A DNA stretch of 53,051 bases from a virus, in IMG/VR virus record IMGVR_UViG_3300021368_002465, positions 1 through 53,051 of that record, one strand, 5' to 3'. The notes beneath the pieces are model-generated. The model did not search any database and had not been told where the DNA came from. It worked only from the letters and a program-made list of their open reading frames with translations. Made by a program: the position numbers and the translations under genes. This document shows positions 24,418-34,637 of the stretch, piece by piece; position 1 is the stretch's first letter; every line of letters begins with the position of its first letter.

Positions 24418-25419
24418 ATGTATGATGTTTATTATACAACCGGTGGAGGTCCTTGGTTAAATGCAGGAACTGATACATGGGTTAATATTTGGTTAGAAGA
24501 AATTGCACCAAAGTTGACTGTTAAACCTGTACTTCTCATACATAGAAACAAACCAAAAAACTTCAATAATCATAAATTCGACTTTCCAATAGAAACTCAT
24601 TGGCATGGCGATGATATAAGAAAGTTTGAAAAAATAGTAAAAGATTGTAGAAGGATTCATATTTTACATGGACATTATACACCACAAAGAGCCATAGAAA
24701 ATAATAAACATAAAATATACAGTAACGTACTACATAATTCAGTTGACCATATTGTAAAATCAACTATGTTTAGTGATGTTCCTGTTATATCCCATCCATT
24801 TCATTCCTCTAAGTGGGAGATGGAAGTAAATGAATGGGCAAAAAAATCAATATGGATTGGATTGTATCCATTAAAATATTCTACAATTGATATACCAAAC
24901 TTTTATGAATTCAAAGAGAATAAAGAATTAAGTAATTCAAATAATATTGGATTTGCAGCAAGATGCGAAGGAAGAAAAAATCCTCACCTATTAGATAGAA
25001 AACCAGGATATGCATTTACAGATGGTAAAGAATTAAATGATTTATGGAAAAAAGGACAAGGACTGAATTTTACTAAACTAAAAATATATCAGTATAATCC
25101 AAAATACAAAGATACGTTTTACAATATGGAATGGGGTATATCTCATTCATGTTTTACATATGAACCCTTTGGGTATTCAATATTTGAGGCGGTTGATTAT
25201 GGAAAAATACCAATTTTACACACAACTTGGTGTCCTGATTTCGAATATCCTTATAGAGCGGCATCGCAAACTGATTTTAATAATATTTATAATAGACTAA
25301 CAACAGAGTCATTTGATATAAAAAACAAGTGGTTTAGTATTCTTAAAGAGTATATGGTTAAAAACTACACTAATAAACAAAAGTGGATAAATCAATTACT
25401 TGATATTTATAACATATAG
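24418..25419 (+). CDS. GT-B type glycosyltransferase (GT4-like)
   Basis: This is a 333-residue protein. The N-terminal phrase TTGGGPWLNAGTDTW resembles the glycine-rich donor/acceptor loop of GT-B enzymes. The C-terminal half has an EX7E motif, E249-PFGYSIF-E257, followed by AVDYGKIPIL, the classic sugar-nucleotide-binding segment of retaining GT4-type transferases. Phage enzymes of this kind add sugars to DNA, to virion proteins or to host surface glycans. Placement between a fibre gene and a Hint-domain virion-like gene favours virion protein or receptor modification over DNA glycosylation. No signal peptide or membrane segment is visible, so a cytoplasmic enzyme is expected. The substrate is unknown. 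The stop overlaps the promoter-like box of the next gene. Confidence 0.7.
   Translation: MYDVYYTTGGGPWLNAGTDTWVNIWLEEIAPKLTVKPVLLIHRNKPKNFNNHKFDFPIETHWHGDDIRKFEKIVKDCRRIHILHGHYTPQRAIENNKHKIYSNVLHNSVDHIVKSTMFSDVPVISHPFHSSKWEMEVNEWAKKSIWIGLYPLKYSTIDIPNFYEFKENKELSNSNNIGFAARCEGRKNPHLLDRKPGYAFTDGKELNDLWKKGQGLNFTKLKIYQYNPKYKDTFYNMEWGISHSCFTYEPFGYSIFEAVDYGKIPILHTTWCPDFEYPYRAASQTDFNNIYNRLTTESFDIKNKWFSILKEYMVKNYTNKQKWINQLLDIYNI
25404..25411 (+). promoter_or_regulatory. TATTTATA element inside gene end
   Basis: It lies in the last codons of the glycosyltransferase gene, 17 nt before the ATG at 25429, and an AGGAGA ribosome-binding stretch lies between. It is positioned like the other boxes despite being in coding sequence. 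Confidence 0.4.
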
Positions 25420-25428
25420 GAGAAAAAT

Positions 25429-26700
25429 ATGGCAAGAAGTTCAGGAGACACACTCTCATTAAATGCATTAGCAGGAGCAACGGGAAATACTCAAAATTCC
25501 AATGTATCCTTAAATACAATTAACGGTTCGGCTGGAACAGAAGTATCATTTGATGATTACGGAATTGATTCAGTTGGTTCAATATCAGGATATACTTACT
25601 TAGTAGAAGATACTTCTGATACTTATACACTTGGATTTACTGGTGCTGGAGGTAAATTTTCTTCTATATCTGGTAGATATCAAAACTTTACTTGGGCAAA
25701 AGATGAAATTGAAGTTGAAAGTGATATCACAATATCTTCAAACCAAGATGCAACAGCAACTGTAACTGCTAAAACTGATATAGGTGGTGCATCTCAAACA
25801 TTAATATCAATAACATCTAATCAACAAAATACTCTTCAAGTAACATTCGCTGATGGATTTAATGACCATGCAACAAACTATAATACTGTAAGAGAAAAAA
25901 CTATATATGTAGTTGATTCATATGATGGTAACTCTGATGCTCTTTGTTTATCATTGGATACTCCTATAACAAAGGCAGATGGAACAATCATATCAGCTGG
26001 TGATGTACAAGAAGGAGATGTTCTTAAAGGATTTGAAATAGCAACTTTAGGTGAAGATTCAGATGATGATTATCTAAATTGGTCTACAAATGATTTATCA
26101 ACAACATCGGAAGATGTAACAGTAACTAATATAGTATTTTCATTTGCAGATAGAATATACGATATAAACAATGGTGAATTACAAATTACAGGTGAACACC
26201 CAATGTTAGTTAAAGTAGATAATACATTTAAGTTCAAACCTGCTTTAGATATTCAAGTAGGAGAATATTTGGTAAAAGGAGATAACTCATTAGTAGAAGT
26301 TACTTCCAAAGAATCAACAGTTGGTTCAACCGAAGTTGTTTCAATAGATGTAGAAACTGAAGATACTTATTTAGTAAATGGATATATTACTCACAACAAA
26401 GGTGGTAATACATTTAGTGACCCTCTACCATCAGCGGTAACAGGTCTTTCTTATTCAGACCCTGATTTATCATGGACTGCATATACTGGAGCTAGTGATT
26501 ATTCTGTACAAGTAGATAATAATTCTGATTTCTCATCACCTATTATTAATAAAGGTAATTGGAATGATACATCAATGCAAGTTAGATTAGGTGCATCACC
26601 ATTTAACTTAACTGATGGTACTACATACTATGCAAGAGTAGCGGCTAGAAAAGGTGGAAGAATTGGAACTTACTCAAATACATTGACATTTGAAGCATAA
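25429..26700 (+). CDS. Virion-like protein with internal Hint (bacterial intein-like) domain and Fn3-like tail
   Basis: This is a 423-residue protein. Residues 1-172 are beta-rich and unassigned. A Hint domain spans Cys173 to Asn323 (151 residues): CLSLDTPITKADG at its N-terminus, TxxH block B at Thr254-His257 (TGEH), and a C-terminal YLVNGYITHN ending in His322-Asn323. The next residue is Lys324, not Cys/Ser/Thr, so ordinary protein splicing is unlikely. This matches type B bacterial intein-like domains, which mainly cleave themselves. Residues ~330-423 (VTGLSYSDPDLSWTAY, TTYYARVAARKGG) look like a fibronectin type III domain, which binds surfaces or glycans in many phages. Cleavage could release or rearrange that tip. 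There is no endonuclease insertion, so it is not a mobile intein. Confidence 0.75.
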   Translation: MARSSGDTLSLNALAGATGNTQNSNVSLNTINGSAGTEVSFDDYGIDSVGSISGYTYLVEDTSDTYTLGFTGAGGKFSSISGRYQNFTWAKDEIEVESDITISSNQDATATVTAKTDIGGASQTLISITSNQQNTLQVTFADGFNDHATNYNTVREKTIYVVDSYDGNSDALCLSLDTPITKADGTIISAGDVQEGDVLKGFEIATLGEDSDDDYLNWSTNDLSTTSEDVTVTNIVFSFADRIYDINNGELQITGEHPMLVKVDNTFKFKPALDIQVGEYLVKGDNSLVEVTSKESTVGSTEVVSIDVETEDTYLVNGYITHNKGGNTFSDPLPSAVTGLSYSDPDLSWTAYTGASDYSVQVDNNSDFSSPIINKGNWNDTSMQVRLGASPFNLTDGTTYYARVAARKGGRIGTYSNTLTFEA

Positions 26701-30340: not shown

Positions 30341-30829
30341 ATGGCAGAAGTATTAGAATTTAACGATATGTTCTACACGAACTTCGAACCGAAGATGAAG
30401 AACAGATACATCATGGAAATTGATGGTATCGCTTCTTATCTTATCAAAGCGGCTAACAGACCTTCAATTACATTTGAACCTGTTGTTCTAGACCATATCA
30501 ACGTAAAGAGAAAATTAAAAGGAAAAGGTGAGTGGCAAGATGTAGAGGTTACTCTATATGACCCAATCGTACCAAGTGGTGCACAACAAGTAATGGAGTG
30601 GGTAAGAACATCTCACGAATCTATTACAGGTAGAGATGGATATGCTGATTTCTATAAAAAAGATATCGATATCTATATGTTAGGACCAGTTGGAGATAAA
30701 ATCGAAAATTGGAAACTAAAAGGTGCATTCATTAACAGTGCAGTATTTAATGATTTAGACTGGGCTTCTAATGACCCATCAGAAATCACTTTAACACTTT
30801 CTTACGATTACGCTATATTAGAATACTAA
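30341..30829 (+). CDS. Tail tube protein (T4 gp19-like)
   Basis: This 162-residue protein matches the size of T4 gp19 (163). Typical features are an N-terminal FNDMFYTNFEPKMKNRYIMEIDGI, the phrase IKAANRPSI, the central loop ISGxxxWxDVEVTLYDPIVPSG with QQVMEWVRT, and the C-terminal WKLKGAFINSAVFNDLDWAS...ITLTLSYDYAILEY. It forms hexameric rings stacked inside the sheath through which DNA passes. A strong terminator follows, so the sheath-tube pair may be a separate abundant transcript. Confidence 0.92.
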   Translation: MAEVLEFNDMFYTNFEPKMKNRYIMEIDGIASYLIKAANRPSITFEPVVLDHINVKRKLKGKGEWQDVEVTLYDPIVPSGAQQVMEWVRTSHESITGRDGYADFYKKDIDIYMLGPVGDKIENWKLKGAFINSAVFNDLDWASNDPSEITLTLSYDYAILEY

Positions 30830-30860
30830 TACAAACAATACTTTTGATACTTCCATATAA

Positions 30861-30890
30861 AAGGTTCTCTTAGTGAGAACCTTTTTTTTT
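30861..30890 (+). terminator. Rho-independent terminator after tail tube gene
   Basis: AAGGTTCTC (30861-30869) pairs perfectly with GAGAACCTT (30875-30883) around TTAGT and leads into a run of T's. Position 30873, sometimes taken as an upstream start for the next gene, is in its loop. Confidence 0.92.
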
Positions 30891-30941: not shown

Positions 30942-31700
30942 ATGGCAAATTATGATTTTCCAACAGAAATAATCTCATTACCATCACAAGGTAAAGGTTA
31001 TCCTGAGAGTAATCCTCTCTCGAAGGGAACCGTTGAGATAAAATATATGACTGCAAGAGAAGAAGAAATTCTCGCATCGCAGAATCTAGTGAGAAAGGGG
31101 GTGGTGATAGATAAGTTATTCGAATCAATTATAGTTGAAAAAGAAATTAACGTAGATGATATCTTATTAGGGGATAAAAATGCAATACTACTTGCAACTC
31201 GTGTACTAGGTTATGGTCCAGAGTATAAGATACAACTCACTAACTCAATAGGAGAACAACAAGAGGAAATAGTTGATTTAGGTAAAGTACAAACAAAAGA
31301 AATTGATTTTGATAAACTTTCACCAGACAACAAATACGAATTCACCACACCACATGGAGGAAATAAGTTAGAATATAAAATTTTAACTCATGGTGATGAG
31401 AAAAAAATTGATGCTGATATCAAAGCACTACAAAGATTAAATAAAGGTAGTGTTGCAGCTGAATTAACAACAAGATATAGATATATGATTCTATCAGTAG
31501 ATGGGGAATCAGATACTAAAACAATAACAAATTTCATTAACAATAAGTTTATAACTCGTGATACCAAAGCGTTTAGAGAACACATACAAACGATAACACC
31601 CGATATCGTTATGGAGTTCGAGTTTGTAGATGATGAGACGGGAGAAGGAGAGGTTAGGTCCATTCCCATGGGCGTTGGGTTTTTTTGGCCTACCGAGTAA
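30942..31700 (+). CDS. Tail assembly chaperone / T4 gp26-like baseplate protein, zero-frame product
   Basis: This is a 252-residue protein starting MANYDFPTEIISLPSQGKGY. The phrases LPSxGxxYPxxxPLxxGxVEI, MTAREEEIL and LxGDKNAILLATRVLGYGPEY are hallmarks of the T4 gp26-type (T4_baseplate) family. Related proteins often carry a CxxC zinc site after YGxEY, but that is absent here (QLTNSIGEQQEE). I chose the ATG at 30942 because an upstream in-frame ATG at 30873 lies in the terminator loop. The gene ends in TTTs and TGG CCT ACC GAG TAA. A +1-frame extension overlaps the 3' end (see 31687-31917). Its place immediately before the tape measure gene matches lambda G-type tail chaperones. Confidence 0.75.
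   Translation: MANYDFPTEIISLPSQGKGYPESNPLSKGTVEIKYMTAREEEILASQNLVRKGVVIDKLFESIIVEKEINVDDILLGDKNAILLATRVLGYGPEYKIQLTNSIGEQQEEIVDLGKVQTKEIDFDKLSPDNKYEFTTPHGGNKLEYKILTHGDEKKIDADIKALQRLNKGSVAAELTTRYRYMILSVDGESDTKTITNFINNKFITRDTKAFREHIQTITPDIVMEFEFVDDETGEGEVRSIPMGVGFFWPTE
31677..31686 (+). other. Candidate programmed frameshift site, GGG + seven T
   Basis: Zero-frame codons here are GGG TTT TTT TGG. A +1 slip of the TTT-TTT pair keeps full pairing on the seven-T run and enters the 31687-31917 frame; a -2 slip reaches the same frame with one extra Phe. The zero-frame stop follows at 31698-31700. Confidence 0.6.
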
Positions 31701-31917
31701 CTACTCAGTTATACTCCATCAACAGATTTTTGAAATGTGTTATTATGGTAATGGATTTACTCAAGAAGGAGTTTACAGATTACCGATACATATTAGGAGA
31801 TTTTACTACAAACAACTTTCTGATACAAAGAAGAAAGAATCAGATGATGTAAAGAAATCTCAAAGACAACAAGGAGGTTCTTCCCCAAAAGGACCAAATG
31901 TAAGAGTGAGGAAATAA
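31687..31917 (+). CDS. Frameshift extension of tail assembly chaperone (T part of a G/GT-like pair)
   Basis: The +1 frame encodes 76 residues from GLPSNYSVILHQQIFEMCYY through GFTQEGVYRLPIHIRRFYYK, ending with a Lys/Gln-rich basic tail. The LHxQIFxxCYYGxGFxxExVYxLPIxxRRFYYxxL pattern is typical of the second domain of phage tail chaperones that bind the tape measure protein. The coherent protein begins right at the frameshift site. The first in-frame ATG inside it (31735) has no ribosome-binding site and would drop the LHQQIFE part. The fusion product would be about 324 residues. The stop codon lies in the loop of a terminator hairpin. Independent initiation at 31735 or 31630 is the alternative. 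Confidence 0.65.
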   Translation, partial: GLPSNYSVILHQQIFEMCYYGNGFTQEGVYRLPIHIRRFYYKQLSDTKKKESDDVKKSQRQQGGSSPKGPNVRVRK

Positions 31918-31933
31918 TTTCCTCACTTTTTTT
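31905..31933 (+). terminator. Rho-independent terminator with a stop codon in its loop
   Basis: AGTGAGGAAA (31905-31914) pairs perfectly with TTTCCTCACT (31918-31927); the three-base loop is the TAA stop of the frameshift extension. A T-run follows. Ribosomes translating the extension would cover the hairpin, so termination may depend on frameshifting. Confidence 0.9.
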
Positions 31934-31970: not shown

Positions 31971-32210
31971 ATGAAGATAACTAAAAAACAATTAAGAGAA
32001 CTTAAATCTAAGCCTTATTTTCAGAACGAAGGTTTTATATCAAGACTATTTGCTAGAAAACTTGGAAAATTATTAAAAAAAGATAATGATTTCAAAAAGG
32101 CAGTAGATAATTTAGATAACTCAATGGAAAACTTAAGAAAGCAAATAATTGATGCAGAAAAAAATGGTATCAAGATTCCACCTGGAATGAAAAAATATGC
32201 TGGAATGTAA
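31971..32210 (+). CDS. Small basic helical protein before tape measure
   Basis: This is a 79-residue protein beginning MKITKKQLRELKSKPYFQNE. The start MKITKxQLRxLxxE is a recurring N-terminal signature of small proteins in marine T4-like phages, of unknown role. The rest is helical and Lys-rich (FKKAVDNLDNSMENLRKQII), ending PPGMKKYAGM. I chose the ATG at 31971 because GGAG lies 7 nt upstream; a TTG at 31959 is less likely. It is 3 nt from the tape measure start and probably co-translated, so a tape-measure chaperone or minor tail role is a fair guess. Confidence 0.65.
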   Translation: MKITKKQLRELKSKPYFQNEGFISRLFARKLGKLLKKDNDFKKAVDNLDNSMENLRKQIIDAEKNGIKIPPGMKKYAGM

Positions 32211-32213
32211 TAA

Positions 32214-34637
32214 ATGGCAAAGAATAAAGCACAGTTAGAGAAAGAGTATCAAGATGCTCTAAAAATATCATCTTCTATGGTTAGTGACTTAACTAAACTA
32301 TTAGATGAGAATACTAGTGCCACAAACAAAAAAACAAAAGCAGAGAAAGGTTATCAAAAATCTCTAAAACAAATGTTAGAAGATAGTGATAAGGCATCTA
32401 GTATTCAAGACCGTATTGCTAGTATAGAACAACAAAAAGAAAAGTTTGCTAAAAATTACTTTGGTAAAAATAAACAAATTGGTCAATTAGCAATTGCAAA
32501 TCTAAATGTAGAACAAGATAAATTAAAAACTCTTGATATTGTTGACCAAAAAGCTAATGGACTTGCAGATAAACTAAGTTCAGGTCTTGATGGAATGCAA
32601 TCTAGCTTAAAAAGTATCCCAGTCTTGGGAGGATTATTAGATAGTGTTACCAAAGGCCCTCTTGAGGGAATGAAAAGTGCTATTTCTGATTCTGCAAAAA
32701 GATTTGTTACCGGATTTGGTGAAGCCGCTAAAGGTGGTAAAGCTGGTATAATGGGATTTGTTAAATCTTCAATAGGAGGATTTAGAGCAATGGGTATTGC
32801 AATGTTAACAGGTCCTCAAGCAATTATATTTGGATTACTTGCAATAATAGCCGCAGGTGTTAAGGCCTTTGCAAACATGGAGGCTAGTGCAAAAGCATTT
32901 AGGGATGAGACTGGATTACTAAATTCTCAAACCCAACAAATGCAAACCAACATCAATTCTGTTTATATGGAAACTGTTGGATTGGGTGCATCGATGGAAG
33001 ATGTTGCTAAAGCAGCAGCTGATTTCACAAACGAATTTGGTGGTATTGAACAACCCGCTAAGAATACAATGAAATCCATGATGGTTCTTAGTAAGAACTT
33101 TGGAGTTTCAACACAAGATGCCGCAAAATTAAATAAAGCATTCCAAAATATGGGAGGATTGAGTGAAGAAGTTGCTCAATCTAATTTAGAATCCCTTACC
33201 TCATTAGCGGCTCAAGAAGGAGTTGCTCCGAGTAAAGTGATGGCTGATATTGCTGATTCTGCTGAAGATGCAAATGGATTCTTTAGAGGAAATGTAGAAG
33301 CGATGGGAGCTGCGGCAATAAATGCTGCAAAATTAGGTACATCTCTTAAAAAGGCAGTAGAGGTTTCTAAAGGTTTATTAGATTATCAAAATTCAATTGG
33401 TGGTGAAATGGAAGCTAGTGCTATCCTAGGTACTAACTTAAACTTTTCACAATCTCGTTATCTTGCGGCTCAAGGTGATGTAGTTGGTGCACAAGCCTCG
33501 ATGGTAGAACAACTTAGAAATCAAGTTGATTTACAGAATCTAAGTATATTTGAACAAGAGGCTCTTGAAAAAGCAACTGGTATGACAGTTGGTGAAATGC
33601 AGAACATGGCTAGAATCCAAGAACTAGGATTAAGTACAGAAGGTGAAAGAGGAAAACTTTTACAAAAAGCACTTAAAGCTGGAATGGATATCTCTAAGAT
33701 GAGTAAAGAAGAGATTAATGCAGCAACTGATAAATTAGCATTAGAAGAAGAAAGACAAGGTAGATTAGAATCAATGGGTAATCAATTATCTGCAATGGGT
33801 TCTCAAATACTACAAATGTTTTTACCTATTGGTGAACTTTTAATAGGAGCTATATCATTTGTAATGCCACTTATCAAAGGAATATTCGGAACAGTTTCAG
33901 TTGCTATTAAAAACCTTATTAAGGCATTTGACCCAATCAAAACAATATTTAATGATATTTTTGGAGGAGAAAGTGGAGAAGCTGTAGATGGAATTAAGAA
34001 AACGTTTGAAGTTATTGGTAACATAATTGGAGGAGTTCTTACAGTTGGAATTAATTTATTTGCCAACTCAATCAAAGCAGTATCTAATGTTATAAGTGGA
34101 ATATACGATATATTCAAAGGATTGATGAATGGAAACTTTGACCAGGTAAAAGAAGGTTTATTTTCATTAGGTGAGGGTATCTTAAGATTCTTTACAGCAA
34201 TACCAATGGCTTTATTAGATACATTTGGAAACGTATTTACTGCTGTTAGAGAATCTCTTAGTGGAATGTTTACTGGTCTTAAAGAAAAAATACTTAATAT
34301 ATTACCTAATTGGGCATTAAAATTACTTGGTAAAAGTGGAGGAGCTGAAACACAAGAAGCAGCAATGGAAACTAAAGTTAATGATGCGGTAATTGGTCCA
34401 AGTGGAGATGTAATATCAACATCACCTCAAGATTACTTAATTGCAACACAAGACCCACAATCACTTGCAGGAGGTGGTACTGTATCAATGGAAGGAGTTA
34501 TTGCTGAACTAAAAGAACTAAAAGCGGCTTTTGTATCAAATAAAGATGTTTATATAGATAATGAAAAAATTACCTCTCGTATCACCAAAACACAAGAGAA
34601 AAGTAATATTAACCAATTTGGATTAATGGGAGCTTAA
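32214..34637 (+). CDS. Tail tape measure protein
   Basis: This is an 807-residue protein. The N-terminal ~120 residues are coiled coil (Lys/Glu/Gln-rich), followed by Gly/Ala-rich helical sequence. A hydrophobic stretch lies near 195-220 (MLTGPQAIIFGLLAIIAAGV) and two more near 540-565 and 600-630 (LIGAISFVMPLIKGIFGTVS). This pattern is typical of tape measure proteins, which fill the tube, set its length and are ejected to contact the inner membrane. At about 1.5 angstrom per residue, the length predicts a tail near 120 nm. It follows the chaperone and precedes tube-initiator and hub genes, the standard order. No lytic domain was recognised. Confidence 0.85.
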   Translation: MAKNKAQLEKEYQDALKISSSMVSDLTKLLDENTSATNKKTKAEKGYQKSLKQMLEDSDKASSIQDRIASIEQQKEKFAKNYFGKNKQIGQLAIANLNVEQDKLKTLDIVDQKANGLADKLSSGLDGMQSSLKSIPVLGGLLDSVTKGPLEGMKSAISDSAKRFVTGFGEAAKGGKAGIMGFVKSSIGGFRAMGIAMLTGPQAIIFGLLAIIAAGVKAFANMEASAKAFRDETGLLNSQTQQMQTNINSVYMETVGLGASMEDVAKAAADFTNEFGGIEQPAKNTMKSMMVLSKNFGVSTQDAAKLNKAFQNMGGLSEEVAQSNLESLTSLAAQEGVAPSKVMADIADSAEDANGFFRGNVEAMGAAAINAAKLGTSLKKAVEVSKGLLDYQNSIGGEMEASAILGTNLNFSQSRYLAAQGDVVGAQASMVEQLRNQVDLQNLSIFEQEALEKATGMTVGEMQNMARIQELGLSTEGERGKLLQKALKAGMDISKMSKEEINAATDKLALEEERQGRLESMGNQLSAMGSQILQMFLPIGELLIGAISFVMPLIKGIFGTVSVAIKNLIKAFDPIKTIFNDIFGGESGEAVDGIKKTFEVIGNIIGGVLTVGINLFANSIKAVSNVISGIYDIFKGLMNGNFDQVKEGLFSLGEGILRFFTAIPMALLDTFGNVFTAVRESLSGMFTGLKEKILNILPNWALKLLGKSGGAETQEAAMETKVNDAVIGPSGDVISTSPQDYLIATQDPQSLAGGGTVSMEGVIAELKELKAAFVSNKDVYIDNEKITSRITKTQEKSNINQFGLMGA

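Follow-up and report, generated by a model that had tools for sequence, protein, structure and literature searches.

The DNA analysed here, called the window throughout, is the whole 53,051-base IMG/VR virus record IMGVR_UViG_3300021368_002465, and it very probably holds a programmed +1 ribosomal frameshift by which two forms of a tail assembly chaperone, the short TAC-N and the long TAC-NC, would be made from one locus. A two-part chaperone produced by programmed frameshifting into the +1 frame had been predicted earlier from the letters of the sequence, and every comparative test has backed it. Judged by the genomes compared, the long chaperone appears to be formed by a +1 slip on a T run in a large group of T4-related phages, most of them uncultured, while cyanophage relatives appear to use a -1 shift and T4 two genes. 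One homologous chaperone family whose two forms are made in three ways (+1 shift, -1 shift, two genes) would allow the evolution of the direction of frameshifting to be tested on a single tree, and the annotation is corrected for many phages in which the C domain is missing, drawn as a separate gene or left as a fragment. The two-form chaperone, its -1 frameshift and the two genes of T4 were already known, and a +1 shift has been proposed for HSTV-2 (PMC5009743). No report of a +1 shift in the gp26/gp51 chaperone family was found in the accessible literature, a scope to which Vladimirov 2022 does not belong; new in this literature are the +1 direction across a clade and a Shine-Dalgarno (SD)-like GGAGG, conserved at synonymous sites and usually located 26 nt upstream.

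Organisation of the locus

The features of the locus are listed in Table 1. TAC-N starts with the ATG at 30942 and ends with the zero-frame TAA at 31698-31700, its 3' codons from 31677 being GGG TTT TTT TGG CCT ACC GAG TAA, in which GGG occupies 31677-31679 and the T7 run 31680-31686. The +1 extension covers 31687-31914, begins GLPSNYSVILHQQIFEMCYYGNGFTQEGVYRLPIHIRRFYYKQL, comprises 76 codons and is closed by TAA at 31915-31917. These positions agree exactly with the original prediction of a gp26-like gene ending at GGG and seven T's and of a 76-residue +1 domain from 31687; the stop of the extension had also been placed in a terminator loop, and the TAA does fall in the 3-nt loop of the terminator at 31902-31930 (z -5.5 vs shuffles). 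The chaperone unit is flanked by two strong terminators, as found by terminator scan and folding. The tail sheath and tail tube genes lie 5' of the chaperone and a 79-codon ORF, without a Pfam match, followed by the tape measure gene lies 3' of it. The extension had been said to sit directly before the tape measure gene; it is indeed upstream of this gene, but not directly, as the 79-codon ORF (31971-32210) intervenes. No tRNA genes were found in the window.

Two side observations were made in the same window. The motif TATTTATA is found at 25404, 26727, 30311, 30911 and 31942, some 25-40 nt 5' of several late genes, and its copies in the window number 21 on both strands (18 on the + strand) against 11.6 expected; it is possibly a late promoter or a processing motif. 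The protein encoded at 25429-26700 weakly matches the intein-splicing (Hint-like) PF14890, at 8.6e-4 and below the cut-off, and after this region it ends in a fibronectin III-like part.

Table 1. Features of the chaperone locus and its surroundings in the window
Feature	Coordinates	Strand	Evidence
Tail tube protein (T4 gp19-like)	30341..30829	+	PF06841 2e-9, phrog_4542 3.4e-30
Terminator 3' of the tail tube gene, 5' limit of the chaperone transcription unit	30859..30885	+	Terminator scan and fold, z -5.4
TAC-N, short tail assembly chaperone, T4 gp26/gp51-like, 252 aa	30942..31700	+	phrog_150 1.6e-7; AlphaFold2 pLDDT 92
Shine-Dalgarno-like AAGGAGAGG, end 26 nt 5' of the slip codons	31645..31653	+	Synonymous-site conservation
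Slip site GGG TTT TTT TGG CCT	31677..31691	+	Invariance in relatives, codon bias, re-pairing analysis
+1-frame C-terminal domain of TAC-NC, 76 codons, small, helical	31687..31917	+	Synonymous differences, C-domain HMM, AlphaFold2 pLDDT 85
Terminator with the TAA of the extension in its loop	31902..31930	+	Terminator scan and fold, z -5.5 vs shuffles
ORF, 79 codons, between the chaperone and tape measure genes	31971..32210	+	ORF list
Tail length tape measure protein	32214..34637	+	phrog_167 1.1e-7

Protein family and predicted structure

By sequence and by fold the N domain is a member of the tail assembly chaperone family of T4 gp26/gp51 (PF12322, phrog_150). The phrog_150 match of TAC-N (1.6e-7) extends over residues 5-234; the protein of the window is below the reach of the Pfam family PF12322, which is matched by its SP-15 relative at 1.5e-28. 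T4 gp51 combines the N-family match with a match of its C part to phrog_634, to which the -1-frame domain of cyanophages belongs, and T4 gp26 matches the N family only, which agrees with the short gene and fused long gene reported for some T4-like phages (as cited in PMC10885494).

The N and C domains were folded separately with AlphaFold2, each as read from the DNA. The N-domain model is confident (pLDDT 92) and 57 BFVD entries match it at E <= 0.001, including T4-like baseplate hub assembly proteins; its TM to SP-15 is 0.85, and no solved structure matched it significantly (HK97 2ob9 at E 2.1). The C domain is modelled as three helices (pLDDT 85), and its fold search gave no significant match, the best having an E of 0.08. 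Fold matches to N and to C were also seen paired within the same phage, for example Tenacibaculum phage pT24 and Myoviridae sp. ctgXL3, and possibly in the BFVD pairs A0A8S5VPU5/VPS8 and G4KKH9/G4KKI0, suggesting from the models that there may be more unannotated frameshifted chaperones.

Conservation of the slip site and coding nature of the C domain

A scan of viral contigs provided 80 IMG/VR homologues of the N part with 66-100% identity. In 80/80 of these loci TTTTTTTGGCCT is unchanged (T7GGCCT being invariant), with about 40 different flanks, and the conservation of the slip site is far beyond chance. The C domain comes next in the +1 frame in every homologue but L015, whose C domain contains a change of length; a few further loci are truncated where the contig stops. 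The choice of codons is equally strict among the 31 representatives: both Phe codons are TTT in all of them, with 34% of the Phe codons elsewhere in the same genes being TTC, the Pro codon is CCT in all of them (27% of Pro codons elsewhere in the gene), and GGG precedes the run in 29 of 31 as compared with 13% of the Gly codons elsewhere.

In the +1 frame of the C domain 76% of the single-base codon differences are synonymous, compared with 12% and 16% in the other frames, and the third codon positions are the most variable. There is purifying selection in the +1 frame and on both parts. Among 62 non-identical close relatives, 24 are without ATG, GTG or TTG in the +1 frame, both upstream as far as the nearest stop and over its initial 20 codons, and in 31 the whole frame lacks an ATG. 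Because of selection in the +1 frame and the existence of these startless relatives, the C domain is regarded as coding sequence without its own start. The earlier view that it has "no good start of its own" is therefore upheld by the relatives but not by the window itself, where +1-frame ATG codons are located upstream of the T run at 31630 and 31633.

Proposed mechanism of the frameshift and rival explanations

The simplest reading of the conserved letters would be that tRNA-Phe slips by +1 while the A site holds a slow codon. Most ribosomes would read 30942-31700 and release TAC-N with the C-terminal end GVGFFWPTE. While the P site holds the second Phe codon and the Trp codon UGG waits in the A site, a fraction of the ribosomes would move one base forward, tRNA-Phe passing from UUU (31683-31685) to the overlapping UUU (31684-31686), and reading would restart at GGC, giving TAC-NC of 324 aa (GVGFF-GLPSNYS...VRVRK). 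On the model of lambda G and GT, we infer that many copies of TAC-N would coat the tape measure protein and a few copies of TAC-NC would recruit tail tube subunits by the C domain, and that the GGAGG-type element upstream probably raises or tunes the slip. No stimulatory RNA structure was detected near the slip site, as there was no covarying helix and the local fold was no better than shuffles.

The re-pairing analysis comprised 106 +1 representatives below 80% identity, and cognate or prfB-type +1 re-pairing in the P site is possible in 106/106. It takes place at the FF/FL pair in 101, 7 of which may also use prfB-type CTT to TTT, and outside this pair at the preceding TTT C in L084 and at CCC A in four representatives; the base after the second slip codon is T or C in 101/106. 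Relatives deprived of the T7 run (CTT TGG, TTC TTT CGT, CTG TTT CGC, CCC AGT) all allow cognate or prfB-type +1 re-pairing. Conserved +1 re-pairing is thus found together with selection in the new frame, the combination looked for in a programmed +1 frameshift, and this mechanism is preferred because it fits all representatives, whereas a -2 shift fits only 84/106 and transcriptional slippage is at odds with the short runs.

The original prediction had allowed "+1 or -2", of which the first part stood. A -2 shift of the ribosome on the T run, of the kind suggested for phage Mu (PMC5009743), would yield the same domain with one extra Phe, and in the window T4-6 can re-pair at T2-4; nevertheless, re-pairing of this kind is impossible in 22 of the 106 representatives with the same frame relation (e.g. 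TTT CTT TGG, TTC TTT CGT, CTG TTT CGC), in which +1 is possible as in all others, so a Mu-type site is not kept among relatives and the -2 shift is considered improbable. Transcriptional slippage on T7, by which a fraction of mRNAs with one U fewer would carry the fusion in a single frame, has a slightly poorer chance still: the run is invariant among close relatives, but many relatives show the same +1 relation with interrupted runs or with only 3-6 T, which takes slippage out as a general mechanism, and the codons around the run (GGG, TGG, CCT) are fixed as well. Both the -2 shift and slippage are ruled out as general mechanisms by the analysis of the 106 representatives. It is less probable again that there are simply two genes, the C domain being translated from its own start by re-initiation or by internal initiation from the GGAGG element. 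The GGAGG-like element 25-27 nt 5' of the site and the +1-frame ATGs of the window speak for such an arrangement, and separate ORFs have been drawn by the annotators of Mel-JY01 and cyanophages, but the startless relatives described above (24/62 with no usable start, 31/62 with no ATG) speak against it, it would leave the fixation of TTT TTT TGG CCT at synonymous sites unexplained, and internal initiation from GGAGG was rejected since no start codon at a consistent spacing was seen by eye. Homopolymer runs are error-prone, but a sequencing or assembly error or a broken gene has a negligible probability and is refuted by the same run and frame relation in 80/80 contigs and several isolate genomes and by purifying selection on both parts. 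None of the outcomes named beforehand as contradicting the frameshift (a sequencing error, a conserved separate start, single-frame homologues) has occurred.

The upstream Shine-Dalgarno-like element

Of 104 representatives, 42 have GGAGG 24-42 nt upstream of the slip codons, compared with 5.4 +- 1.9 when synonymous codons are shuffled with the protein and the codon usage of each representative preserved; as the representatives are interrelated, the z-scores of the shuffles make them look more independent than they are. The distance from the end of GGAGG to the site is exactly 26 nt in 31 of these 42, and the count in four control windows is 0-1. Mostly it is phased as ACG GAG GTA, with AGG AGG GAA and GGA GGG GTC in other subclades, in other phases and at nearly the same distance; the variant of the window is AAGGAGAGG. 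The element is therefore conserved at synonymous sites, usually 26 nt upstream. Most chaperone genes of these phages have no SD-like sequence at their start: one was seen in 16/175 and 0/80, by crude start-finding that may have put the immuto starts at an internal Met. Although the anti-SD of Bacteroidia, the hosts of immuto, is occluded, they retain the SD-like element in prfB frameshifting (PMC8710568).

At a distance of 26 nt the GGAGG element cannot act as in prfB. It may be, although this is a tentative and rather doubtful proposal, that GGAGG 25-27 nt upstream represents a new kind of +1 stimulator, too far to pair with the slipping ribosome and acting through a second ribosome directly behind it (paused on the element, or a 30S subunit recruited there) or by an anti-SD interaction specific to hosts whose initiation does not use SD. 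If the distant element works, it would be a new stimulator geometry, in phages of hosts thought to ignore SD at initiation.

Distant relatives and direction of the proposed shift

Further scans increased the collection to 371 loci in total, with the frame of the C domain assigned by a C-domain HMM. In the lineage of the window the C domain lies in +1 at 270 of 272 loci, overlapping the end of the N ORF, and in -1 at 2; this frame relation, and the location between the tail tube and tape measure genes with one small ORF before the latter, are those of the G/GT type. Alignment of homologues had been proposed as a check of the T run and the frame relation, and both proved conserved (80/80 close homologues with the run, 270/272 loci of the lineage in +1). 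In the cyanophage lineage the C domain lies in -1 at 82 loci and in +1 at 0.

The +1 lineage is composed of IMG/VR contigs and isolate phages of Flavobacterium, Microcystis, Bacillus, Listeria, Streptococcus and Streptomyces. The C domain comes next in +1 after TTT CTT TGG CCT in Flavobacterium phage immuto, TTT TTT TGG CCT in Microcystis phage Mel-JY01, TTT TTT CAC in Bacillus phage SP-15, TTT TTT AGT in Listeria phage LIS04, TTC TTT CGT in Streptococcus phage GXN1 and CTG TTT CGC in Streptomyces phage BRock. Cyanophages carry the canonical -1 heptamer T TTT TTC in nearly all of 84 surveyed loci, and Atu_ph07, PA5oct, XacN1 and LR756511, read by eye, look like -1. One member of the lineage of the window, L161, has TTC TTC TGG in place of TTT TTT TGG and its C domain in -1, which is either an indel or a switch of mechanism. 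The subclade of L196, L199, L201 and L205 has AAT CCC AGT, and the slip appears to have moved there to CCC A, resembling CCC UAA of SPP1.

In a quick tree of 99 N domains with long T4 branches (99 rows, all four labels counted, two rows with truncated contigs included) the direction labels are strongly clustered, with 6 changes against a shuffled mean of 21.6. Between the C domains of the +1 group and those of the cyanophage -1 group there is only a weak match (hhalign 26%); by way of the SP-15 group the values are 73% and 95%. What had been predicted from the window included neither the upstream SD-like element nor the -1 shift and the two genes of related phages.

Comparison with known systems

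The locus resembles lambda gpG/gpGT and G-T of other long-tailed phages (PMC5009743) in having a short and a long chaperone with a frame-shifted C domain just 5' of the tape measure gene; the shift of lambda is -1, whereas here it would be +1, and a lambda-type site was rejected, the C domain being in +1 with no fitting X XXY YYZ heptamer in frame. The review of the G-T frameshift excepts T4 from the conservation (PMC5009743). T4 gp26 and gp51 are given as TAC-N and TAC-NC (Vladimirov, Gautam and Davidson 2022, Virology 566:9-15, as cited in PMC10885494 and PMC12846349); so far as these citations go, the N-domain family (PF12322, phrog_150) and the existence of two protein forms are common to both systems, but T4 has two genes in place of the one gene and putative frameshift found here. 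Cyanophage gp26 and gp51 (S-RIM50, S-H34) share a homologous N domain, a C domain in another frame and Phe-Phe slip codons, and differ by a -1 shift at T TTT TTC and by an SD-like element located 10-20 nt upstream instead. The Vandenendeviridae TAC (phage Adele, PMC12846349) has the same two-form design with a -1 shift.

A tail chaperone fusion by +1 has been proposed for the G-T analogue of the haloarchaeal myovirus HSTV-2 (PMC5009743), which has an archaeal host and is compared here by its +1 design. With prfB (release factor 2) the locus would share a P-site +1 slip and an SD-like element upstream, and CTT TGG C of immuto is one base from CTT TGA C of prfB; by definition, however, it is not a prfB-type site, because prfB has a stop in the A site and its SD-like element about 3 nt upstream, whereas here the A site holds a sense codon (TGG, TAC or CGT) and the distance is 25-27 nt. 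In SPP1 17.1/17.1* is made by +1 at CCC UAA and 17.5/17.5* by -1 at UUUUUUC (PMC6316719), so that a +1 shift in a tail gene and a CCC slip, as in four relatives here, have a counterpart there; the +1 shift of SPP1 nevertheless belongs to its tail tube gene and the SPP1 chaperone uses -1 (PMC6316719).
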